Below, piece by piece: positions 1,731 through 11,887 of a DNA stretch of 64,000 nt; within the stretch, counting starts at the first letter, position 1, and every line of letters starts with the position of its first letter. The notes under the pieces were generated by a model, which was not told the origin of the DNA, ran no database searches, and saw only the letters and a program-made list of their open reading frames with translations. A program made the position numbers and the translations under genes. The DNA comes from Lachnospiraceae bacterium (GTDB lineage: Bacteria > Bacillota > Clostridia > Lachnospirales > Lachnospiraceae). The DNA is taken from contig SVFD01000001.1 of assembly GCA_015057025.1 (NCBI GenBank), positions 248,001-312,000 of the forward strand. Reading direction: 5' to 3'.

Positions 1731-3098
1731 ATGGAAATTATTGAAAATATTTTAACAAATCATCCGTGTTACAAGACGGGGAGAAAAATAGTTGTTCGTG
1801 GGATTATGTTACATAGTGTAGGCTGTCCGCAACCATCAGCGGAGGCATTTATACAGAAATGGAACAAATCGGACGAGAAACGAGCATGTGTGCATGCTTT
1901 TATTGATGGAAATACGGGTAAGGTCTATCAGACATTGCCGTGGGATTATAGAGGATGGCATGGTGGAAGAAGCTCTAATAATACACATATTGGTGTTGAA
2001 ATGTGTGAACCGCCAACCATCAAGTATGTAGGTGGCTATGAATTTCGTGACTTGGACAGACAAACTTCTTTGGGGGTTGTTAAGAGAACTTATGATGCGG
2101 CCGTGGAATTATTTGCTTTTCTATGCATGAAATTTCATTTAGATCCAAAGGAAGATGGAGTCCTTGTCAGTCATAGCGAAGGATTTGCCAGGGGTATTGC
2201 TACAGAGCATTCCGATCCGGAACATTTATGGAACGGTTTACAGAGTGGTTATACAATGGATGGCTTTCGAAGAGATGTAGCTGAGTATATTGCACATGCA
2301 GAGAAGCAACCGCCTGCAGATAAAACCATTCCGAAGATAAATCCGATGGTAATAACGGATGCAATATCGATGGTAGAAACCATATCCACGATCTGCCCCG
2401 GTGTGTTGGTGAGTTTGACCAATGATGCAGTTTATTATAATGGCAAAGAGATACCGTCATGGATTAAAAATGACAGATGGATTGTAAAATCCGTGAACGG
2501 TGATAGATCAGTAATTGATGTAAATGAGAACAAAACCAGATCTATTTGCAGTTCGATAAATATCAAACATTTACAACTTGTATCTGCGGCAGATACGCCT
2601 GTGACACCAATGGATGTACAGGATGCAGGCGGACAAAAACCCGAAGGACAGAAAAAGGATGGCATAAGAAAACAGGTTTCTGATAATGCAGTTGCGCTAG
2701 TTGCAAAATATACAGGTTGCCAATTACAAGCATATCTAGATCCGGCAGGAGTATGGACAATTGGATACGAACATACGCAGGGTGTACAGCCGGGGCAGAA
2801 GCTTTCTTCGGTAGAGGAAGCAAAAGAGCTATTGAAATTAGATTTGCAAAAATATGCAGACTATGTGAATGAATATGTGCATAATGGAACCATTCAGTTT
2901 GCACTTAACCAGAATCAATTTGATGCATTAACCTGTTTTTGCTATGGTTGTGGAAAAGGTAATTTGAGAACGTTGGTAATGGGCAGAGATGCCGCAACCG
3001 TAGCGGATAAAATGCTTCTGTATAATAAAGGCGGTGGTAAGGTCATTTCGGCTTTGGTACGTCGCAGGTCGGAAGAGAGAAGTTTGTTTATTAGTTAG
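1731..3098 (+). CDS. Bifunctional peptidoglycan hydrolase copy 1: amidase + SH3-like linker + GH24 lysozyme with lost catalytic Glu
   Basis: 455 residues, no signal peptide, start preceded by GGGGAGA. Residues ~1-190 are an Amidase_2-type N-acetylmuramoyl-L-alanine amidase domain with the zinc-ligand region LHSVG, the strand IGVEMCEP (Glu90) and SHSEG...HSDPEHLW. Residues ~215-290 resemble a bacterial SH3-type wall-binding segment (VYYNGKEIPSWIK). Residues ~318-455 are a GH24 phage-type lysozyme domain. The catalytic Glu of GH24 is Thr328 here (KYTGC, where the copy at 9532 has KYEGC). The TIGYGH motif reads TIGYEH and a usually conserved Asn before CG is Gly. The lysozyme half is therefore predicted inactive while the amidase half looks intact. 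The gene is monocistronic or follows the LuxE-LuxC gene by 93 bp. It shares long near-identical DNA stretches with the copy at 9532. Confidence 0.85.
   Translation: MEIIENILTNHPCYKTGRKIVVRGIMLHSVGCPQPSAEAFIQKWNKSDEKRACVHAFIDGNTGKVYQTLPWDYRGWHGGRSSNNTHIGVEMCEPPTIKYVGGYEFRDLDRQTSLGVVKRTYDAAVELFAFLCMKFHLDPKEDGVLVSHSEGFARGIATEHSDPEHLWNGLQSGYTMDGFRRDVAEYIAHAEKQPPADKTIPKINPMVITDAISMVETISTICPGVLVSLTNDAVYYNGKEIPSWIKNDRWIVKSVNGDRSVIDVNENKTRSICSSINIKHLQLVSAADTPVTPMDVQDAGGQKPEGQKKDGIRKQVSDNAVALVAKYTGCQLQAYLDPAGVWTIGYEHTQGVQPGQKLSSVEEAKELLKLDLQKYADYVNEYVHNGTIQFALNQNQFDALTCFCYGCGKGNLRTLVMGRDAATVADKMLLYNKGGGKVISALVRRRSEERSLFIS
2853..2933 (+). repeat. 81-bp direct repeat within the lysin genes (copy A)
   Basis: These 81 bases are identical to 10684-10764 in the same orientation. 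They lie in the GH24-coding part of two lysin paralogues and are the longest perfect match I found by eye within two ~1.37-kb related genes. They could support homologous recombination or gene conversion across the intervening 7.8 kb. Confidence 0.9.
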
Positions 3099-3245
3099 CT
3101 TATATAAAAATTTATAATTAAATCTTGTCATAAATCGTCGATATATTGTATTATATTTTTATGTATTGCAATATAAATTGTAATGCATAAACTAAATCCG
3201 TTGCAAAACAGTACTTCTTTTACCCAAAGAAAGGAGATAAAAGAA

Positions 3246-4067
3246 GTGGACAGAAGAAAAGAACGGAAAGAATACGAGGAATATTTATATCAGAGGGAAT
3301 TATCTGCAAGAACTGTTCAAATATATCTGATACAACTTGAGAGATTTTGGGATTTTTTGGGTAAAAGACCAATTAGTAAAAAAGAAACTGTGGCGTATAA
3401 AGCGAGTATGAAAGAAAAAGGATGGAAGGTTACAACCGTAAATCTTTATACTGTAGCAGTTAACAGTTATCTCGTTTATTCCGGTCATTCAGAATGTGTA
3501 TTAAGAACGGAACGGGTGCAGAGAAGGCAGTGTCCGGATGATGTTTTAAGCGGTGGAGAGTATCGTAGGTTGTTGGAGTATACGAAACAAAATGGCAATA
3601 AGAAATACTATTGTCTAATGCGCACACTGGCATTAACCGGCATCAGAATAAGTGAATTGTCAGGCTGCAGTGTGGAATCACTGGAGAACGGTAAATTTAC
3701 GATATGTAACAAAAGAAAAACAAGAGAGGTGTATTTACCTCCGAAGTTAATTGTGGACTTGGAAGATTATTGTCAGATGAGCAATATTGATTCGGGTCCT
3801 ATTTTTCTTGGTAATTGTGGAAATGCCATTAATCGTATATCTGTTTATAAAATGTTGATAAAGCTTGCAGGCAAGGCAGGTGTGCCAAGAGAGAAGGTGC
3901 ATCCCCATAGCTTTCGGCATTTGTTTGCGATTACATATATGAAGACGTATTCAAATTTATTTGAATTGGCAGATATTTTGGGGCATTCCAGTTTGGAGAC
4001 GACAAGAATTTATACGGCATCATCAGCAGAGGAAAAGCGAAGGAGAATTAATTGCTTAGAATTATAG
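3246..4067 (+). CDS. Tyrosine recombinase / integrase (XerC/D-like)
   Basis: I choose the GTG at 3246 (273 residues) because AAGGAG lies at 3231-3236; the frame is open further upstream to an ATG at 3183 that has no ribosome site. The N-terminal ~85 residues fit the SAM-like core-binding domain (YLYQREL...TVQIYL). The catalytic domain shows all expected residues: Arg in GIRISELSG, HSFRH, LGHSSLETTRIY with the nucleophile Tyr near the C-terminus. The family cuts and rejoins DNA at paired short inverted arms through a 3'-phosphotyrosine intermediate. It sits between two lysin genes and just upstream of two repeated 22-bp motifs (4115-4136 and 4269-4290) that could be its sites. It resembles small stand-alone Firmicutes recombinases rather than a large phage integrase; no excisionase or attachment repeat pair was evident. 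Confidence 0.88.
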   Translation: MDRRKERKEYEEYLYQRELSARTVQIYLIQLERFWDFLGKRPISKKETVAYKASMKEKGWKVTTVNLYTVAVNSYLVYSGHSECVLRTERVQRRQCPDDVLSGGEYRRLLEYTKQNGNKKYYCLMRTLALTGIRISELSGCSVESLENGKFTICNKRKTREVYLPPKLIVDLEDYCQMSNIDSGPIFLGNCGNAINRISVYKMLIKLAGKAGVPREKVHPHSFRHLFAITYMKTYSNLFELADILGHSSLETTRIYTASSAEEKRRRINCLEL

Positions 4068-4114: not shown

Positions 4115-4136
4115 TAACACAATACGATAATATGTT
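4115..4136 (+). repeat. Candidate recombinase/regulator site S1 (10 + 6 + 6 architecture)
   Basis: The arms TAACACAATA and TATGTT flank a 6-base core CGATAA. The same two arms at the same spacing recur at 4269-4290 with a different core. The site lies 48 bp after the recombinase stop codon. Function is inferred from position and shape. Confidence 0.5.
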
Positions 4137-4183
4137 GTGGGTGTCAAGTATTTTTTTGAAAAAATATAGAATAAGGCTGTTTT

Positions 4184-4215
4184 GAGTGGATTTCATTGGA
4201 ATCTGCTCTTTTTTT
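4184..4215 (+). terminator. Rho-independent terminator after the recombinase gene
   Basis: A 10-bp stem (4184-4193 with 4199-4208, including three G-U pairs) with a 5-base loop is followed by seven T. It lies between the two repeated motifs S1 and S2 and separates the recombinase from the downstream lysin operon. Confidence 0.6.
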
Positions 4216-4268
4216 ATGGGCAAAAAACAGATAGAAATATGTCGCAAAGTAGCAAAAAATGAGGAGGC

Positions 4269-4290
4269 TAACACAATATCGTATTATGTT
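4269..4290 (+). repeat. Candidate recombinase/regulator site S2
   Basis: Arms TAACACAATA and TATGTT are identical to S1 in sequence, order and spacing, but the 6-base core is TCGTAT instead of CGATAA. It lies 44 bp before the next start codon. Different cores with identical arms would disfavour simple S1 x S2 strand exchange and may mean the motif is a binding site instead. Confidence 0.5.
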
Positions 4291-4333: not shown

Positions 4334-5440
4334 GTGGAAATTGTAGAAAGTTTTCTGACAAGAAATCCATGCTATAAAACCGGGGAGACAATTACTGTTC
4401 GTGGACTTATGCTTCACAGCGTTGGATGTAATCGGCCGGATGCAGGTGTCTTCATACACAATTGGAATAACGAGAGCGTAAGTAGGGCTTGTGTACATGC
4501 TTTTATCGATGGCAATTCGGGGATTATCTATCAGACACTGCCTTGGAACCATAGGGGCTGGCATGGCGGAAGTAGAGTAGCCAATGATAAATATATCGGG
4601 GTTAAAATGTGTGAACCGGCGTGTATTCAGTATAAAGGCGGTACAAAGTTTATCTGTACAGACAGCGAGCAAGCTCTGGAAGTTGTGAAAAAAACATATC
4701 AGTCAGCAGTAGAGTTGTTTGCTTTTCTTTGTACAGTGTATGAGCTGGATCCGTTAGAGGATGGTGTCATTGTCAGTCATAAAGAAGGGTACGAAAGAGG
4801 AATTGCATCAAGATGCTCGGATCCGGAGCATCTGTGGGACGGATTGGAGAGCGGATACACTATGGATGGATTTAGGCAGGATGTGGCTCGGTATTTGGAA
4901 GAACAGAATAAAAGTGACCGGGAAAAAGATGCACCTGATAAATCCGAGGGGAGCTCGGAACTTGTAGCAGTGGAAAATAACACATTAGAGAATCAAGTTC
5001 CAACCAGATTATTATCACCCCGTGGGATTGAGTTTCTCATGCATGAAGAAGGATGTAAATTGAAGGCATCGAAATGTGCAGGCGGAAAATGGACGATTGG
5101 CTACGGTCATACGCAGGATGTTTATGAGGGTCAAACCTTACCGGATGAAGCGGCGGCTAAAGAGCTTTTTATGAAGGATGTGGTGATATATGCAAATTAT
5201 GTAAATGATTACATAAGTAATGGCACTATTACTTTCACGGTAAATCAAAATCAGTTTGATGCACTTGTAAGTTTTTGCTATAACTGTGGCCCCGGTAATT
5301 TGCGAACCTTGGTGAGCGGAAGAGATGCACAGACAGTGGCAGAAAAAATACTTTTATACCGTAAGGCGGCAGGCCGAGTGAATGAAGAATTGGTTGCCCG
5401 TAGACAGAGAGAAAGAGAATTATTTATAAAAGAAGATTAG
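4334..5440 (+). CDS. Bifunctional peptidoglycan hydrolase copy 2: amidase (Glu to Lys) + GH24 lysozyme, no linker domain
   Basis: 368 residues from a GTG start placed 5 bases after AAGGAGGAG. The domain order is an Amidase_2-type amidase (~1-195), a short charged linker, then a GH24 lysozyme (~226-368). The SH3-like middle domain of the other two copies is missing, which explains the shorter length. The GH24 catalytic Glu is present (Glu239 in HEEGCKL), as are TIGYGH and FCYNCG. In the amidase domain the strand IGVEMCEP of the paralogues reads IGVKMCEP (Lys91), replacing the position I align with the catalytic Glu of AmpD. So this copy probably retains muramidase activity but may have lost amidase activity, the reverse of copy 1. 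It is the first gene of the operon that runs to 10929; the next start is 17 bp downstream. Confidence 0.85.
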   Translation: MEIVESFLTRNPCYKTGETITVRGLMLHSVGCNRPDAGVFIHNWNNESVSRACVHAFIDGNSGIIYQTLPWNHRGWHGGSRVANDKYIGVKMCEPACIQYKGGTKFICTDSEQALEVVKKTYQSAVELFAFLCTVYELDPLEDGVIVSHKEGYERGIASRCSDPEHLWDGLESGYTMDGFRQDVARYLEEQNKSDREKDAPDKSEGSSELVAVENNTLENQVPTRLLSPRGIEFLMHEEGCKLKASKCAGGKWTIGYGHTQDVYEGQTLPDEAAAKELFMKDVVIYANYVNDYISNGTITFTVNQNQFDALVSFCYNCGPGNLRTLVSGRDAQTVAEKILLYRKAAGRVNEELVARRQRERELFIKED

Positions 5441-5457
5441 AAATGGAGGAAGAAGAT

Positions 5458-6852
5458 ATGTGTAAAGAAATGGATAAGTATATATTGAAAGCAGATAGGG
5501 AGAAATTAAAGGAATTAGCTAATGGACATAATTATATTTATAGCTTCAGAGAGGCTGGCGAATATACCATTAGATGTCTGTCGAGAGGCGCTGGTGCCAA
5601 ACCGCATTCAATTTTAGCAAAGACTATCAAAACAGTAGGTGTAACAGATAAGAATGAAGAACAGAAAGTGAAAGCTGCTAATGCTGTAATTAATAGGTTT
5701 TTTCAGGACTTTGGTGAAGATAAGGAATTGGCGCAAGGTTTGTTAATGGGTTTGGTTGGATTTTGGGATAAAGGTGAAATTACAGGTATTTATGTTACAA
5801 AATTGGGAGAAGAGAAAATCAAGGAATATGCACATAAGAAAAATGAAAAAGTAAACATTTTTTCAAGAAATAAAGATAACTTGATTCTTGGGAAAGAACA
5901 TGCACGGTATTTAAATCTTGCAAGTAAGGAATTAAAAGCCGGATTAATAGAATGTTATAAAAATATCTCTATTTTAGAGGAAATGCCGGAAAGTATTAAA
6001 AACCTTAATAATATGCAAATGTATCTTTTTAACAGACTATTTTTCAGCGGCGATTATGATATGCATGATTTTTTTGTGGCAGGTAAAACGATGACATCTA
6101 CGTTAGATATGCACGAAATAACGAAAATACAGGAAGAGCTATATGTAGCAAGACAAACGCAAATTACAAACTGGATTTTGTCTGAAATAGAAGGAAACAA
6201 GCAGAAATTGAAAGAAACATTAGCGACAAAACTGCAAGAAGAACATGAAAGCGATTATTACAGAGTTCAGCATGGGCCGCAGTACAATTACATTGCACAG
6301 ATGATAAATGATAATGACGAAATATTGAAAATGTGCAAAGATGAAATGACAGGTAAGATTATGCACAATTATTTTAATACAATTGTAGACGTAGTTGCGG
6401 ATGCTAGTTTTTCTCTACTTGCCTATAAACGTGTAGAGAAAGGAAGTGATGAGGCGGGATGGAGAATAATTCAGAATAAAGACGAGTTAAATCAAATGTA
6501 TGCAGATTGTGGTATGCATATGAAGGAAACTTGGTTGAATCCTTTTGAAATTAAAACACACAAAAACTTTATTCTTAAGCAATTGCTTATTGCATATATG
6601 GATATGCACAAAAAGAAAAGAATCAGTTGGGGCGAAGAGCTGGCTGCAGATATTAAGGCAAAAAAAGGACAGAGTAACGGTGGTACTATAAAAGAAGCAA
6701 TTGCTGAGGAAATGAAAGAATGCATTAATGACGTGCTTGAAAAATATAAGCAAAATCCGCAAGTATTTGAAGCTGCATATGGAGAGGAGTATTCTGAGTG
6801 TTTAGTACGTGCATATGAGGATTTTTTTGGCATAAAGGTCGTTAATAAGTAG
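5458..6852 (+). CDS. Uncharacterised 464-residue mostly helical protein of the lysin/DUF2589 operon
   Basis: I place the start at 5458, because the in-frame ATG at 5443 is embedded in the GGAGGAA ribosome site that serves 5458. I do not recognise a family. The protein is soluble, rich in Lys, Glu and Asn, and predicted mainly helical by composition, with no signal peptide or membrane segment. A central stretch (LNNMQMYLFNRLFFSG) and a region rich in Glu, Lys and Gln suggest helical bundles. It is tightly packed between copy 2 of the lysin (17 bp) and the first DUF2589-like gene (11 bp), so it is probably co-translated with them and functionally linked. No nuclease, ATPase or toxin motif was evident. 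It could be a scaffold or effector; nothing in the sequence decides this. Confidence 0.75.
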   Translation: MCKEMDKYILKADREKLKELANGHNYIYSFREAGEYTIRCLSRGAGAKPHSILAKTIKTVGVTDKNEEQKVKAANAVINRFFQDFGEDKELAQGLLMGLVGFWDKGEITGIYVTKLGEEKIKEYAHKKNEKVNIFSRNKDNLILGKEHARYLNLASKELKAGLIECYKNISILEEMPESIKNLNNMQMYLFNRLFFSGDYDMHDFFVAGKTMTSTLDMHEITKIQEELYVARQTQITNWILSEIEGNKQKLKETLATKLQEEHESDYYRVQHGPQYNYIAQMINDNDEILKMCKDEMTGKIMHNYFNTIVDVVADASFSLLAYKRVEKGSDEAGWRIIQNKDELNQMYADCGMHMKETWLNPFEIKTHKNFILKQLLIAYMDMHKKKRISWGEELAADIKAKKGQSNGGTIKEAIAEEMKECINDVLEKYKQNPQVFEAAYGEEYSECLVRAYEDFFGIKVVNK

Positions 6853-6863
6853 GAGAAAATAGC

Positions 6864-7727
6864 ATGAACGATGACGTAACATATTTAGATGAGCTTAGTA
6901 ATGATGCAGATGATGAAGGCAGCAGGTTTAAAGAAAGCGAATTTATACCCTTAGATGATTTGGTGTATGCTCCGTTATACGCTTTGGCAAAGTCAAATCA
7001 GCATCTTAGAGAGCATATAATTGATGCGATTAAGGGACTGGGAAGTATAAGGCATGATGGAAAAGAAGAAACGGTATGTTTAAATAACTTAAATATTGCA
7101 TATGACCAGATACGTCAGGAGGGAGAAGAGGGCTATAGTGTTGATAATCTTCAGATGCAGGTTCCGCTTTTATCTATCGTACCTGTTACAAATCTGAATG
7201 TGGAAAAGGCAGAAATTGATTTTTCCACAGAGGTAAAAGCCGAAATGAAGGAGGCAGGAAAGTGTTCAGTCAATGCAAGGATTTGTGCACCGGAACAGCG
7301 CGAAAGTGATTTTTTACCAAGAGTTCATTATAAATTACAGGTTGGTTCGATACCGGCGACGGAGGGAGTTATGCGATTAACAGATGTTTTAAGCAGTAAT
7401 CAAATAGCAAAAAAATTGGATACAACACCGGTTGCTGTGGATGGCAACTTAGGATGCGACGAACACAAAAATGTGTGGCAGGAGTTAAACATGCTTCGAG
7501 CAAAAGTAAAGAGGCTGAAGCAATTGTATAAGAAAGTGGTAAATATGATGACGGAACAGGAACAGTTGGAGCATGTGAGTCATGAATATTACACGGAAAG
7601 TACATGTATGTTTGACAGAGAAAAATATCTAATGACACAGTCGGATATTGCCAATCGCATAATGGAATACCAGGATCAGATTATGAATATGGAGATTGAA
7701 CTCGGATTGGAAAGAGATTATGAGTAG
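6864..7727 (+). CDS. DUF2589-like protein A (acidic N-terminus)
   Basis: 287 residues. After an acidic ~30-residue N-terminus comes a segment (IPLDDLVYAPLYALAKSNQ) that aligns with the start of the protein at 7998 (LSMDQLIGGPLSAAADASN). Next is the family hallmark VPLLSIVPVTNLNVEKAEIDF (~102-122), comparable with VPMLAIVPIPNLQVDEVNILF in the second protein, then a beta-rich part and a C-terminal coiled-coil-like segment (~215-287). I assign it to the DUF2589 family by this motif and its order; the family has no established function known to me. Compared with the second copy it has a longer acidic leader and a shorter coiled coil. Its stop overlaps the next start in ATGAGTAG, suggesting translational coupling. 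The two DUF2589 proteins may form a hetero-oligomer (inference). Confidence 0.65.
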   Translation: MNDDVTYLDELSNDADDEGSRFKESEFIPLDDLVYAPLYALAKSNQHLREHIIDAIKGLGSIRHDGKEETVCLNNLNIAYDQIRQEGEEGYSVDNLQMQVPLLSIVPVTNLNVEKAEIDFSTEVKAEMKEAGKCSVNARICAPEQRESDFLPRVHYKLQVGSIPATEGVMRLTDVLSSNQIAKKLDTTPVAVDGNLGCDEHKNVWQELNMLRAKVKRLKQLYKKVVNMMTEQEQLEHVSHEYYTESTCMFDREKYLMTQSDIANRIMEYQDQIMNMEIELGLERDYE

Positions 7728-8028
7728 TGATGAACGAATAGTTTGCATGACAAATCCGGAAAAAATTGTTTTTGAACAAGTGATTTATGAACATTTAAAG
7801 ACCTTGGCAGAGGAGATGAATGTACGATTATTTTGTGATGCTCCGTGGCCTATGGGAGTTGTAATGCAGGTTGAAAAGATAGCAATTACAAGTATTGAGT
7901 ATCCTACATCAGCAAAGACAGAAAAACAAAAAGAGAAACGATTTGAAAGAATCGGGGCGTTTATAAAAAAGAAAATATTTAGAAAGAAGGGATTTTTATG
8001 GCAATCGCAGAACAGTTTGCGGGATTAA
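7720..8028 (+). CDS. Uncharacterised 102-residue protein between the two DUF2589-like genes
   Basis: I choose the ATG at 7720, which overlaps the previous stop by 8 bases; an upstream in-frame ATG at 7696 lies deep in the preceding gene. The 3' end overlaps the next gene by 31 bases, so all three reading frames are interlocked and translation is probably coupled. The protein starts acidic to neutral, has a core around APWPMGVVMQVEKIAITSIEYP, and ends in a strongly basic tail (KTEKQKEKRFERI...KKKIFRKK). There is no recognisable domain and no membrane segment. The basic tail could bind nucleic acid or a membrane surface, but this is a guess. The conserved spacing suggests it works with the flanking DUF2589-like proteins. 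Confidence 0.65.
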   Translation: MSSDERIVCMTNPEKIVFEQVIYEHLKTLAEEMNVRLFCDAPWPMGVVMQVEKIAITSIEYPTSAKTEKQKEKRFERIGAFIKKKIFRKKGFLWQSQNSLRD

Positions 8029-9179
8029 GTATGGATCAGTTGATTGGTGGACCGCTTTCGGCGGCAGCTGATGCAAGCAATCAGTTAGCTTGCTCCACAG
8101 CAGAATTTATTAACAGAGTTGGATTTGATGCAAATGGCAAAGTGCGTACAGTGGCGTTTGGTTATCAGAAACGTAGTGCTAATAACGATGGTACAAGTAA
8201 CTTAGATGAAATGAAGGTGGATGTACCGATGCTGGCAATTGTACCAATCCCAAATTTACAGGTGGACGAAGTTAATATTTTATTTGATATGGAGGTAAAA
8301 CAGAGTGAACGCTCAGAATCTACGTCAGATATGAATGCTTCGGTAAATACTTCGCTAAATTTTGGAGTTGTTAAGGTTAGTGTTACCGGTAATGTCAGCT
8401 CACATCAGTCAAATACAAGAAGTACAGATAATTCTGCAAAATATCATGTAGATGTACGTGCAACGAATCACGGTACCCCGGAAGGTCTGGCCAGAGTGTT
8501 GGACATGATTGCAGCCAGTGTTTCACCGGCGCTTGTGGAAAGTACTTTAAAAGATGGCAATGGACAGGATTTATCTCAGGCGGCAAAGGAAAAGGCAGAA
8601 AGATTGAAAGCATTGAGACACAGTATTTCTGAGCTTGAGAGCCGCGTGAATGCGGCAAGAGATAATTTGCAAAGCAGTATTGCAATGATGAAAAAAATCG
8701 GCAGTGCGCAATTGAATGTTTTTCAAGGTAAAATTACCGGTCTTATCAATGGACTGAACAAAGATGCGGAAGGGTATGAAGGTACTGTAGATGAATATAA
8801 CTCTGTAATAGATGAAATCAATCGCAGCTGGAGTGTATTCCAAGGACAGGCAGGGGATTTTATCAGATTAATCGCAGATTCTAATGATAGCGATGATGGT
8901 ACAAGTTTATCTGCAGTCTTTGGATTAAAAGAGCTTGACCAGGATGCTGAACAGAAATATGTGGTTAAGGTATATGCGGCACCGATAGAAAAAAGAGATG
9001 ATAAGCCGGCAGAAAACAGTTTTAGCAATCAGTACAGTGGTATGGTGACCGCACAGAATAAGGCTGTAGAATCGCAAAAAAGATTAGATGCGGTAGAAAA
9101 GGAATTAAGCGATGCTAAAGCGGAATACAGTAGCTTGTTGGCGGGACAGACTGTAATCGAAAAGAAGGAAGAAGAATAA
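7998..9179 (+). CDS. DUF2589-like protein B with long C-terminal coiled coil
   Basis: 393 residues with a good start (AAAGAAGGG then ATG). The N-terminus (LSMDQLIGGPLSAAADASNQLACSTAEFINRVGF, in part) and the central VPMLAIVPIPNLQVDEVNILF strand pattern (~74-95) match DUF2589 proteins. A Ser/Thr/Asn-rich beta-structured part follows (~100-160), then a long heptad-like helical region (~185-300, KAERLKALRHSISELESRV and onward) and a second helical segment at the C-terminus (~345-393). There is no signal peptide or membrane helix. The layout (beta-rich head plus coiled coil) suggests a self-assembling structural protein. It is the largest and best-conserved-looking member of the cassette. Known function: none. 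The neighbouring lysins suggest a role in crossing or remodelling the wall, which is inference. Confidence 0.7.
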   Translation: MAIAEQFAGLSMDQLIGGPLSAAADASNQLACSTAEFINRVGFDANGKVRTVAFGYQKRSANNDGTSNLDEMKVDVPMLAIVPIPNLQVDEVNILFDMEVKQSERSESTSDMNASVNTSLNFGVVKVSVTGNVSSHQSNTRSTDNSAKYHVDVRATNHGTPEGLARVLDMIAASVSPALVESTLKDGNGQDLSQAAKEKAERLKALRHSISELESRVNAARDNLQSSIAMMKKIGSAQLNVFQGKITGLINGLNKDAEGYEGTVDEYNSVIDEINRSWSVFQGQAGDFIRLIADSNDSDDGTSLSAVFGLKELDQDAEQKYVVKVYAAPIEKRDDKPAENSFSNQYSGMVTAQNKAVESQKRLDAVEKELSDAKAEYSSLLAGQTVIEKKEEE

Positions 9180-9241
9180 TTTTATGATTGCCGGTTTCAA
9201 AATGTATTAAGGAGATATTGAGTAATTAGGAGGAAATTATA

Positions 9242-9517
9242 GTGAACAGGGATGAAAAAACAACCCTATCAGATATTCACTATATAAAATTGGTTCCGAT
9301 AGGAAGCGTCAACCCAAATAATCCGTTATCGGATGAGTCGAAGCTGGCACAGGCTGAATTGCTAAACCGCTGTTTAAATGAATATCCGAAAGGCATTATT
9401 TTGGGGAAGGATGTTACTATCGGAACCTACCAAATTGGTGAACATCAGTTAGTGATGGAAAAAATTACTTATCATGTTGGATTTAAACGTAAACCTGCAT
9501 GGGAAACATCAGAATAA
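9242..9517 (+). CDS. Uncharacterised 91-residue protein of the lysin/DUF2589 operon
   Basis: The start is GTG at 9242, preceded by a strong AGGAGG (9228-9233). The small soluble protein has the core YIKLVPIGSVNPNNPLSDESKLAQAELLNRCL and a likely beta-rich second half (GIILGKDVTIGTYQIGEHQLVMEKITYHVGFKRKP, in part). I recognise no family. It is separated by 62 bp from the upstream DUF2589-like gene and by 14 bp from lysin copy 3, so it is probably expressed with both. Its size and position before a lysin would suit an inhibitor or adaptor of the enzyme, but it has no membrane segment and so is not a holin. Confidence 0.65.
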   Translation: MNRDEKTTLSDIHYIKLVPIGSVNPNNPLSDESKLAQAELLNRCLNEYPKGIILGKDVTIGTYQIGEHQLVMEKITYHVGFKRKPAWETSE

Positions 9518-9531
9518 AAGGAGGAAGTTAA

Positions 9532-10929
9532 ATGGAAATTGTAGAGAAGTTTATGACAAACAATCCATGTTATAAAGCCGGACGAAAAATAGTCGTTCAA
9601 GGGCTTATGTTACATAGTGTAGGATGTCCGCAACCATCAGCGGAGTCATTTATAAAAAGATCGAACAATCCTAACGAGAAACGAGCATGTGTGCATGCTT
9701 TTATAGATGGAAATACCGGAAAAATCTTTCAGACATTACCATGGGATCATAGAGGATGGCATGGTGGAGGCAGTTCTAATAATACGCATATTGGTGTAGA
9801 AATGTGTGAACCTTCAATCATCAAATATATAGGCGGAGCTACTTTTCGATATTCGGACAGACAGGCTTGTATGGAGGTTGTTAAGCGGACGTATGATGCG
9901 GCAGTGGAATTATTTGCTTTTTTATGCATGAAATTTCGGTTGGATCCTATGAAAGACGGGGTGATTATCAGTCATAATGAAGGACATGCAAGAGGAATTG
10001 CAACAGGACATTCGGATCCGGAACACTTGTGGAATGGTTTACAAAGTGGTTATACCATGGACGGCTTTCGAAAAGATGTGGCGGCATGTTTGGCACGGGC
10101 AGAGAATCAACCGCCTGCAGATAAAACCATTCCGAAGATAAATCCGACAGTAATAACGGAAGCAATATCGACGGTAGAAACTGTATCCACGATCTGCCCC
10201 GGTGTGTTGGTGAGTTTGACCAATGATGCAGTTTATTATAATGGTAAAGATATTCCGTCATGGATTAAAAGTGACAGATGGATTGTAAAATCCGTAAGTG
10301 GTGATAGAGCAGTAATTGATGCAAATGAGAGCAAAACCAAAGCAATTTGCAGTCCGGTAAATATCAAACATTTACAACTTGTATCTGCGACAGATACGCC
10401 GGTGACACCAATGGATGTACAGGAGATAAGTAAACCGATAGTTGAGAAGAAGGATACAAGTGAGCAAAATCCGAACGCTCAGAAAGCGGACTACATAAGA
10501 AAACAGGTGTCTGATAACGGCGTTGCGCTAGTTGCAAAATATGAAGGCTGCCAACTACAAGCATATCGATGTCCGGCAGGAGTATGGACAATTGGATATG
10601 GACATACGCAGGGGGTACAGCCAGGGCAGAAGCTTTTTTCAATGGAGGAAGCAAGGAAGTTATTGAAAGCAGATTTACAGAAGTATGCAGACTATGTGAA
10701 TGAATATGTGCATAATGGAACCATTCAGTTTGCACTTAACCAGAATCAATTTGATGCATTAACCAGTTTTTGCTACAATTGTGGAAAAGGTAATCTGAAA
10801 ACGTTGGTAGCGGGCAGAGATGCCGCAACTGTAGCAGATAAAATGCTTTTGTATAATAAAGGCGGCGGTAAAATTCTTGCAGGTCTGACACGTCGACGTG
10901 AAGAAGAGCAAAAGTTGTTCTTAAGTTAA
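9532..10929 (+). CDS. Bifunctional peptidoglycan hydrolase copy 3: amidase + SH3-like linker + GH24 lysozyme, both active sites intact
   Basis: 465 residues, start after AGGAGG. Same architecture as the copy at 1731: amidase (~1-190) with LHSVG, IGVEMCEP (Glu90) and HSDPEHLW; SH3-like segment (VYYNGKDIPSWIK); GH24 lysozyme (~328-465) with Glu338 in KYEGC, TIGYGH and FCYNCG. The T4-lysozyme Asp20 position is Cys (YRCPAG), which I recall as common in clostridial GH24 enzymes. Of the three copies only this one keeps both catalytic Glu residues. The linker between SH3-like and GH24 parts carries a short insertion (SKPIVEKKDTSEQNPNA) absent in copy 1. No signal peptide is present, so release would need lysis, a holin or another export route. 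It is the last gene of the operon; the terminator at 10952 follows by 22 bp. Confidence 0.88.
   Translation: MEIVEKFMTNNPCYKAGRKIVVQGLMLHSVGCPQPSAESFIKRSNNPNEKRACVHAFIDGNTGKIFQTLPWDHRGWHGGGSSNNTHIGVEMCEPSIIKYIGGATFRYSDRQACMEVVKRTYDAAVELFAFLCMKFRLDPMKDGVIISHNEGHARGIATGHSDPEHLWNGLQSGYTMDGFRKDVAACLARAENQPPADKTIPKINPTVITEAISTVETVSTICPGVLVSLTNDAVYYNGKDIPSWIKSDRWIVKSVSGDRAVIDANESKTKAICSPVNIKHLQLVSATDTPVTPMDVQEISKPIVEKKDTSEQNPNAQKADYIRKQVSDNGVALVAKYEGCQLQAYRCPAGVWTIGYGHTQGVQPGQKLFSMEEARKLLKADLQKYADYVNEYVHNGTIQFALNQNQFDALTSFCYNCGKGNLKTLVAGRDAATVADKMLLYNKGGGKILAGLTRRREEEQKLFLS
10684..10764 (+). repeat. 81-bp direct repeat within the lysin genes (copy B)
   Basis: Identical to 2853-2933 in the same orientation, inside the GH24-coding part of lysin copy 3. 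It marks a recent duplication or ongoing gene conversion between copies 1 and 3. Confidence 0.9.
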
Positions 10930-10951
10930 ATTATTTAATATTTTATACCTT

Positions 10952-10986
10952 AAAACTGTAGTGTGCTTCGGACACTACAGTTTTTT
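10952..10986 (+). terminator. Strong rho-independent terminator closing the lysin/DUF2589 operon
   Basis: A 13-bp perfect stem (AAAACTGTAGTGT with ACACTACAGTTTT) and a GCTTCGG loop are followed by T residues. It lies 22 bp after lysin copy 3 and defines the 3' boundary of the island operon. Confidence 0.9.
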
Positions 10987-10989
10987 GGA

Positions 10990-11383
10990 AAAACTAAATA
11001 TCAAACAAATCATGCTAAAATATTCCTGTGGGAACGGTTGCCCCCTTGAGAAAGGGGAGTGCCTATGGGATATGTTACATATGATAATCTCATTCAAGCG
11101 TGATTTCGGCATATTATCAGAAAAGATAGTTTTCGTTACTTTTACCAATTGCTTTTATATTAATCTGATTGTATAATGCACATACAAAGCATATTTTCTT
11201 TTTGCCAGAGCTTCGGGGCACGAATGCCGTAGCTTTGCACAAATCATGGCGTAGCTGTCTCTTATCTTTATTCACAAAGAGTATTTGAAAATCCATGCTT
11301 TAAATTTCACAATAACAAAATAAGCAGGGATTGTAAGGAGACCCTGTGGACTAGGGGGAAGTGTATGGAATACACGAAGTATT
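10990..11383. other. Gene-poor stretch with decayed sequence
   Basis: About 390 bases without an intact gene. It holds the hairpin CCCCCTT/AAAGGGG at 11041-11057, the short remnant reading frame at 11065-11103 and otherwise no recognisable feature. A 71-codon open frame across 10961-11176 overlaps the terminator and has no family resemblance, so I do not call it. Confidence 0.6.
11065..11103 (+). pseudogene. Possible remnant of a holin-like small toxin gene
   Basis: After a hairpin (CCCCCTTGAGAAAGGGG) and GTGCCT, an ATG begins MGYVTYDNLIQA and then stops. From memory, small hydrophobic holin-like toxins of Firmicutes begin with similar V-T-Y-(D/E)-x-L-(I/F)-Q residues followed by a membrane helix; that helix is missing here. 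This is a weak, memory-based resemblance and may be coincidence. Confidence 0.3.
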
Positions 11384-11887
11384 TTGTCACTACACCAGAT
11401 AAAACTGTCGGTGCAAAAGCGGCAGTCGACAGTATATAATATCAATCCCGGAATGAATGAGGCGTTGCAGGAAGCGAGCCAAACGTTAAAGGAATATGTG
11501 CTGTTTACAACCAAGATACGTGAAAATCGAAAAAATATGGCATTAAGAGATGCTGTGAACAGAGCGGTAGAGGATTGCATCAACGAAGGAATCCTTGCGG
11601 AATTTTTGGCATCGCAACGCGCGGAGGTCGTGGCTATGAGTATATTTGAATATGATGCAGAGAAGCATATACGGCTTGAGAAAGAAGAAAGTTATGAGGA
11701 TGGCAAAGCGGAAGGAAGAACAGAAGGCAAGGCGGAGTCTATCCTGATTATATTAAAAGAAAAAGGTGAATTATCAAAAGAAACAGAGCGCAGGATTATC
11801 GAGGAAAGGAATAGTGAAGTTTTAAAACGATGGGTATTGTTAGCTACGTCGTCTGACGATATAAAAACTTTTAAACGGGGAATGTAG
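11384..11887 (+). pseudogene. 3' remnant of an Rpn-type PD-(D/E)XK nuclease/transposase gene
   Basis: The 167 codons from a TTG match only the C-terminal half of Rpn-family recombination-promoting nucleases: a segment like TVYNINPGMNEAL, LKEYVLFTTKIRENRK, AVEDCINEGILAEFL, AEVVAMSIFEYDAEKHIR and the Gly/Lys/Glu-rich tail (DGKAEGRTEGKAE). The N-terminal nuclease domain, with its Asp/Glu and Lys residues, is absent and no ribosome site precedes the frame. I therefore read it as a truncated gene, although expression of the C-terminal part cannot be excluded. It lies between the lysin island and the flagellar cluster, consistent with a recombination-prone boundary. Confidence 0.75.

Follow-up and report, generated by a model that had tools for sequence, protein, structure and literature searches.

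The stretch analysed here, referred to as the window, comprises 64,000 nt of Lachnospiraceae bacterium GCA_015057025.1 (contig SVFD01000001.1, positions 248,001–312,000); its source, a genome of 2.65 Mb, is called the own genome, and L- and G-numbers denote the loci and genomes compared in this analysis. We found that the window carries an operon in which two phage-type lysin genes are combined with a pair of DUF2589 genes and with genes for proteins of 464, 102 and 91 amino acids (aa), and that this operon is preceded by an Xer-type recombinase gene and a segment which looks like an invertible promoter. The cluster is organized as follows:

1731–3098, plus strand: lysA, an extra Amidase_2 and GH24 protein upstream of the recombinase (Pfam)
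3183–4067, plus strand: Xer-type tyrosine recombinase, the proposed invertase (Phage_integrase, 1e-21; XerA-like NCBIfam, 3e-41, below its cut-off)
4115–4136, unstranded: putative left recombination site, giving the −10 hexamer in the present (OFF) orientation (inverted repeat; core in 13 loci)
4119–4147, minus strand: promoter-like TTGACA-17-TATTGT, facing the recombinase and away from the lysin (promoter pattern scan)
4184–4208, plus strand: terminator-like hairpin and T run inside the segment (pattern scan)
4269–4290, unstranded: putative right recombination site, with TATTAT facing the lysin (inverted repeat; core in loci)
4334–5440, plus strand: lysB, an Amidase_2 and GH24 lysin, first gene past the segment (GTG start; Pfam; GH24 triad intact)
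5458–6852, plus strand: 464-aa cargo-like protein (relatives in the same operon of L034, L036 and L087; no Pfam or PDB sequence match)
6864–7727, plus strand: DUF2589-A (Pfam, 1.6e-16)
7720–8028, plus strand: 102-aa protein with a cationic amphipathic C-terminus (synteny, composition)
7998–9179, plus strand: DUF2589-B, with an N-terminal helix, long beta strands and a coiled-coil tail (Pfam, 5.1e-40; AlphaFold2 model)
9242–9517, plus strand: 91-aa protein, a recurrent DUF2589 partner (in 34/39 listed loci)
9532–10929, plus strand: lysC, the operon's second Amidase_2 and GH24 lysin (Pfam; GH24 triad intact)
10952–10986, plus strand: intrinsic terminator, without a match in a simple pattern scan, though folding gives a hairpin of −17.2 kcal/mol (z −5.2)

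A preliminary description of this DNA had reported seven same-strand genes running from 4334 to a terminator at 10952, which the coordinates of the open reading frames bear out, and its spacing was reproduced throughout: a 17-bp gap when the 464-aa frame starts at ATG 5458, followed by +11, −8, −31, +62 and +14 bp. With the alternative start at ATG 5443 that protein would have 469 aa and the gap 2 bp. Both proteins that had been called DUF2589-like match DUF2589 (PF11655) with 61.4 bits (A) and 137.8 bits (B) against a gathering score of 23, while a Pfam scan of the 464-, 102- and 91-aa proteins gave nothing above a cut-off. The lysins had been described as devoid of signal peptides and the operon as devoid of a holin; in agreement, hydropathy analysis found neither a hydrophobic N-terminus nor any other signal-peptide-like or membrane-like segment in the nine window proteins tested, the highest 19-residue value being 1.61 (lysA). 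The gene set described earlier stands, and what it had overlooked are the recombinase, the lysin at 1731–3098 and the inverted-repeat segment at 4115–4290.

The recombinase has R, HxxR, GH and Y motifs, which we take to be those of tyrosine recombinases. Downstream of its gene, two inverted Xer-like sites bracket a 137-bp segment ahead of lysB. The arms of the repeat (4116–4136 and 4270–4290) are 86% complementary, lie 133 nt apart and pair at 17/20 positions, and 60 shuffles reach at most 15. This recombinase was met in 13 other loci, 12 of which have the site cores TACGATA (left) and TATCGTA (right), the 13th, L032, having a single site. The paired-site sample comprises the window and these 12 loci, each represented by one assembly and no reads, and its 13 members are partly dependent, L034 and L036 being close relatives. 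In 13/13, TTGACA (11 loci) or TTGACT (2) has a spacing of exactly 17 bp to the left-site hexamer and is directed away from the lysin, and the full promoter rule is satisfied at this position in 12. In the right site, the hexamer that faces the lysin is nearer to TATAAT than the left one in nine of the loci, equal in three and worse in one; given this and the shared −35 geometry, inversion should join the same −35 to a good lysin-facing −10. From its sequence, the 137-bp segment looks like an invertible promoter that is OFF in all 13 paired-site loci, a state that is as expected for a costly function. Paired sites, a promoter between them and an adjacent recombinase correspond to the structure by which phase-variable invertible promoters are recognized; as the ON form was not seen, we class the segment as one that works like a phase-variable switch and not as a proven member of that class. 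Within the own genome the left site is the sole exact match to the site pattern, the right site, with two mismatches, ties with one other place, and beyond these two sites the TACGATA core is kept at one place with three mismatches. Terminator-like matches in the region are near chance (5 vs 4.3 expected). The inter-site segment of L020 (6380–6865) is 452 bp long and contains an additional long inverted repeat, perhaps an inserted element.

A search with DUF2589-B retrieved at least 39 loci, and all counts out of 39 given here refer to the matches listed; presence was counted by tblastn anywhere in the fetched stretch, and adjacency was seen by inspection of gene order. The loci derive mostly from metagenome-assembled genomes (MAGs) of Lachnospiraceae, together with a Lacrimispora isolate, Brenneria, Pectobacterium, a Defluviitaleaceae MAG and some MAGs under other names. 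The conserved neighbourhood of DUF2589 and lysin genes that the preliminary description had proposed to look for does exist: a hydrolase is present in 34/39 stretches (that of L050 by a query with the Amidase_2 of this locus) and the 91-aa protein in 34/39 (in L055 the match is around 8 kb from DUF2589-B). Among the five loci without a lysin, L029, L040 and L045 begin at a contig end and L042 and L048 are true absences; the 91-aa protein is lacking in five stretches, of which L036 and L058 stop at a contig end and L044 is short, leaving L053 and L057 as true absences. In Lachnospiraceae the usual order is lysin, DUF2589-A, a protein of around 100 aa, DUF2589-B and the 91-aa protein. The 91-aa profile matches 8 of 397 family genomes, the own one included, and is adjoined by a DUF2589-type match in 8/8, with only the coiled-coil end of that neighbour readable in G467 (29% identity); DUF2589 in turn is rare, being detected in 6/299 family and 2/249 phylum genomes (the own genome counted in both). 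Since the 91-aa protein stands beside a DUF2589-type match in all eight of these genomes and DUF2589 is rare, the genes are patchy in distribution yet linked, and not scattered without linkage among relatives, which the earlier description had named as a finding that would speak against it. Three plasmids, one from Deltaproteobacteria and two from Vibrio, have a core made up of DUF2589-A, DUF2589-B and the 91-aa protein; a PF11860 muramidase gene lies 1.6 kb past the core on the deltaproteobacterial one, and no hydrolase was identified in the module of the two Vibrio plasmids. In Pectobacterium and Brenneria a GH24-like protein adjoins the core, and L068, an IMG/VR contig, has GH108 at its DUF2589 locus. 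The type of hydrolase thus varies while the DUF2589 pair persists, and includes Amidase_2 with GH24, GH24, the PF11860 muramidase, GH108 and Amidase_2.

Both operon lysins, lysB and lysC, possess Amidase_2 and Phage_lysozyme domains (Pfam) and resemble phage endolysin PHROGs in profile matches. The lysA gene shows 82% DNA identity with the lysC region. Its GH24 domain has Thr at the position of the presumed catalytic Glu, which is kept in the other GH24 domains, and lacks the E-x8-[DC]-x5-T pattern that we take to be the GH24 catalytic triad rule; because of this replacement the muramidase half of lysA is probably inactive. The amidase motif reads IGVKMCEP in lysB and IGVEMCEP in all other Amidase_2 copies in which it was found. 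L034, L036, L025 and L058 encode amidase and GH24 separately, and in three of the four an accessory gene stands between the two.

The AlphaFold2 model of DUF2589-B shows one long helix in the N-terminal and three in the C-terminal part, together with four long strands, at a mean predicted local distance difference test score (pLDDT) of 72 and a predicted template modelling score (pTM) of 0.53, residues 103–143 falling below a pLDDT of 50. Fold comparison of this model, which is of middling confidence, returned generic coiled-coil matches only. None of the 166 DUF2589, lysin, 91- and 102-aa proteins of the loci has a 19-residue stretch with hydropathy above 1.8, and across the loci a holin family was met in Pfam solely in L050, as a weak match (0.062) below the cut-off.

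By our reading of the gene order, 10/39 listed loci (L020, L021, L023, L025, L034, L036, L046, L048, L051 and L055) have non-core genes within the operon or immediately following it, as do the window, L087 and L089. They are diverse. The Jacalin lectin domain (PF01419, cut-off 22) is matched in L025 (56.6 bits, 4.9e-15) and L089 (60.0 bits, 4.4e-16), and the Jacalin-type protein of L055, itself without a Pfam match, shares 49.6% identity over 121 aa with that of L025. The first gene past the segment in L023 encodes a 262-aa protein with an HExxH motif (by eye), a DUF4135 protein is encoded in L048 (4896–6497) between the 91-aa gene and DUF2589-B, and L020/L021 and L046/L051 possess two unrelated pairs of accessory proteins without assigned function. 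Hydropathy of ten accessory proteins peaked at 0.84 at the N-terminus; internally, a single stretch, in L034, reached 1.83. The guanine and cytosine content of the accessory genes is lower than that of the lysin genes in 8/9 loci examined (window, L020, L023, L034, L036, L046, L051 and L087), while in L025 it falls between the values of its two lysin genes. As for the 464-aa protein, K53, K60, D204-Y-D206 and H277 are invariant in a group of four relatives, which keep GDYDxHD and QHGxQYN; a fifth relative retains GDYDLHD and QHG, not the last Asn. By eye this recalls the combination of two Lys, D-x-D and His, presumably the active-site pattern of ExoY-like class II nucleotidyl cyclases. By motif only, the 464-aa protein thus resembles class II nucleotidyl cyclase effectors, a family treated in PMC9223806 and PMC5150216. 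In L123, away from DUF2589, a relative of the 464-aa protein and a 636-aa protein are encoded two genes apart (6548–7597 and 9826–11736), with N-terminal leaders that look similar by eye; this pair may represent a different effector context.

With respect to regulatory neighbours, a SpoIIE-type protein is matched in 24/39 listed loci and a STAS protein in 24/39, and 18/39 encode a protein of around 360 aa that is GNAT-like by eye and has no Pfam match. The representative of the SpoIIE type combines dCache, HAMP, SpoIIE and HATPase domains (Pfam). The window copy of the module is atypical: no clear match to the SpoIIE-type gene that commonly lies downstream was obtained in the own genome, and lysC, the second lysin of the operon, occupies that place. 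By eye, no STAS or ~360-aa gene follows lysC in the window, neither having been searched for in the own genome.

We consider it an even call that the operon is a domesticated, phase-variable release module derived from phage lysis genes, similar in action to a type 10 secretion system (T10SS) but with no holin detected. The Xer recombinase would act on its two sites and invert the 137-bp segment that they enclose. As the segment now lies, the promoter would face away and keep the operon off; a flip in few cells would allow the −10 hexamer of the right site to complete a promoter towards lysB, and such cells would make the lysins, DUF2589-A and -B, the 102- and 91-aa proteins and the 464-aa protein as cargo. 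The DUF2589 pair and the small proteins would replace the holin and let the signal-less lysins reach the wall, upon which the cell would lyse or leak and cytoplasmic cargo would be freed.

Among known systems, T10SS cassettes come closest to this scheme, and we take a holin to be a defining part of them; because a holin was sought here and not found, the module is not filed as a T10SS. One DUF2589 locus, L068, invites comparison with TtsA through its GH108 domain, the family to which we assume TtsA belongs. According to PMC6996933, TtsA-type toxin-release muramidases similarly are dedicated to cargo passage through the wall, whereas the window uses Amidase_2 with GH24, along with extra core proteins and a switch. 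T10SS-dependent lysis of subpopulations frees cytoplasmic cargo, and cassettes such as that for YenTc release in Yersinia entomophaga likewise have a phage-type peptidoglycan hydrolase beside cytoplasmic cargo, with release by a subpopulation proposed (PMC10847048); in contrast, the window operon has no detected holin, yet it has the DUF2589 pair, the 91-aa protein and a recombinase-flanked promoter segment. A non-lytic T10SS is reported for Salmonella in PMC13284979, so both lysis and leakage are possible for the module. The RecV flagellar switch of Clostridioides difficile resembles the segment in that DNA inversion upstream of an operon leads to phase variation (PMC7446863 and PMC9286219), but in the window the recombinase is adjacent, the −10 hexamer forms part of the recombination site itself, and inversion is unobserved. 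In the open-licence papers searched DUF2589 is named in one and PF11655 in none; these papers also contain no account joining an invertible promoter to Xer in Lachnospiraceae or to endolysins, lysis or secretion, and the sole one linking it to phase variation and Lachnospiraceae is a review of microbiota and pain, so that a switchable lysin-release device of this kind was not found described in this part of the literature, and an earlier description elsewhere is possible.

Several observations weigh against a switchable release module. Concerning the switch, the ON orientation was seen in 0/13 paired-site loci and inversion is unobserved (one assembly per locus, no reads); L034 fails the full promoter rule owing to TATTAA as its left hexamer; promoter-like matches that face the lysin, though weaker ones, also occur in L024, L034 and L051; and 4/18 segment pairs that beat shuffles score higher inverted than forward, so similarity alone leaves orientation unfixed and the OFF call rests on the position of TTGAC(A/T). 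Sigma-70-like matches in the whole region are no commoner than chance (22 vs 27.5), the site pattern has 8 matches in the own genome, equal to the control, and in 6/39 listed loci a LytTR match occurs without a recombinase match. No clear counterpart of the usual downstream SpoIIE-type gene was found in the own genome, where one weak match (E 4.1e-6) covers the HAMP part at 28%. Concerning release, no holin was detected in the operon, and therefore membrane crossing would rest on uncharacterised operon proteins. As to cargo, no accessory gene was counted in 29/39 listed loci, the cyclase resemblance is accompanied by no Pfam profile match and no PDB sequence match up to E 10, and a relative of the 464-aa protein in G149 is not near DUF2589 among the frames listed. 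Finally, G120, the one congener searched, has neither DUF2589 nor the 91-aa protein.

The missing accessory genes would suit a programmed self-lysis or wall-remodelling function (DNA release, kin effects or development) without dedicated cargo, in which such genes are passengers, and the SpoIIE- and STAS-type genes hint at stress or developmental control; however, unrelated accessory genes recur in the operon, sometimes between the lysin halves or first past the segment (L025, L034, L036 and L023), and we regard this explanation as possible though doubtful. It seems unlikely that the DUF2589 pair is a dedicated translocator or particle which carries cargo through the wall, with lysins acting locally and without cell death. 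Such a role is suggested by the presence of two paralogous DUF2589 proteins, the larger one modelled with beta strands and coiled coils, and by the persistence of the pair across phyla, often with the 91-aa partner, but the core proteins possess no membrane segment and the middling model gave only the generic matches mentioned above. Release by the lysins of contractile particles or tailocins encoded elsewhere in the genome is highly improbable: the own genome does have a contractile sheath gene, yet a sheath was found in just 4/10 genomes searched and the own one is placed in a prophage-like gene order.

Phage ancestry of the module is plausible. In the IMG/VR contigs L069–L071 adjacent DUF2589-B and -A homologues (B at 42–43% identity) lie near small proteins, of which some seem to have a membrane segment and one matches phrog_937 hemolysin at 0.0027; in contrast to the module, their DUF2589 proteins are short, no 91-aa match adjoins, and they are placed inside phage contigs. 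In a phage-match scan of L069 and L071, L069 has portal and tail/virion matches, and by eye a lysozyme-like frame upstream, and L071 has a major head match; L070 resembles these two. This suggests that the DUF2589 pair may be derived from, or common with, phage lysis regions. Together with the endolysin-like lysins and the lost GH24 Glu of lysA, it would also agree with a prophage lysis cassette, degenerate or captured, that has no release role at present, an explanation which we judge quite unlikely, since the gene order recurs with open frames across many species and the switch geometry is conserved. No capsid, portal, terminase or tail family is among the 25 of 74 matched PHROG families listed, for 94 of 204 flanking proteins (L020–L034), and one match was obtained in 50,697 phage records. 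The own genome has, by eye, a prophage-like region with a contractile sheath match (G000:C10:112000–131900, L129), in which no match to the module proteins, DUF2589 and the 91-aa protein included, was found over the 20 kb fetched (far end left out). In the nearest flanks of the cluster within the window, the part scanned, there are no phage structural or packaging genes: to the left, a LuxC/LuxE-like gene (Pfam), and to the right a 167-aa frame with no Pfam match above cut-off, then FlaG and, by eye, further flagellar-looking frames. The left neighbour (81–1637) is a fusion of the C-terminal part of LuxE to LuxC (acyl-CoA reductase) and adjoins the cluster. The suggestion of a degenerate prophage lysis module, made in the preliminary description, thus found no support here, given the open frames in many species, the lack of a listed phage structural family and the prophage-like region of the own genome without the module over the 20 kb fetched. 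Its other reading, in which domesticated lysins form a release or killing device, is unproven and the better supported of the two, because the linkage spans genera, cargo-like genes occur in some operons and the promoter appears switchable.

More broadly, and only tentatively, the switchable release module may belong to a class of effector-release systems of gut Lachnospiraceae and some proteobacteria, in which a core of DUF2589-A, DUF2589-B and the 91-aa protein would replace the holin, hydrolases and signal-less effectors or lectins would be exchangeable, and, in part of Lachnospiraceae, an invertible promoter would commit a rare subpopulation. To our knowledge, few routes are known by which large folded effectors leave Gram-positive gut commensals. 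If our proposal is true, the lysin module, under its switch and with cargo resembling lectins and enzymes, would provide an export route of this kind and give DUF2589 a function; should the operon instead prove to be a switch for self-lysis alone, a phase-variable form of programmed lysis in commensals would remain of note.

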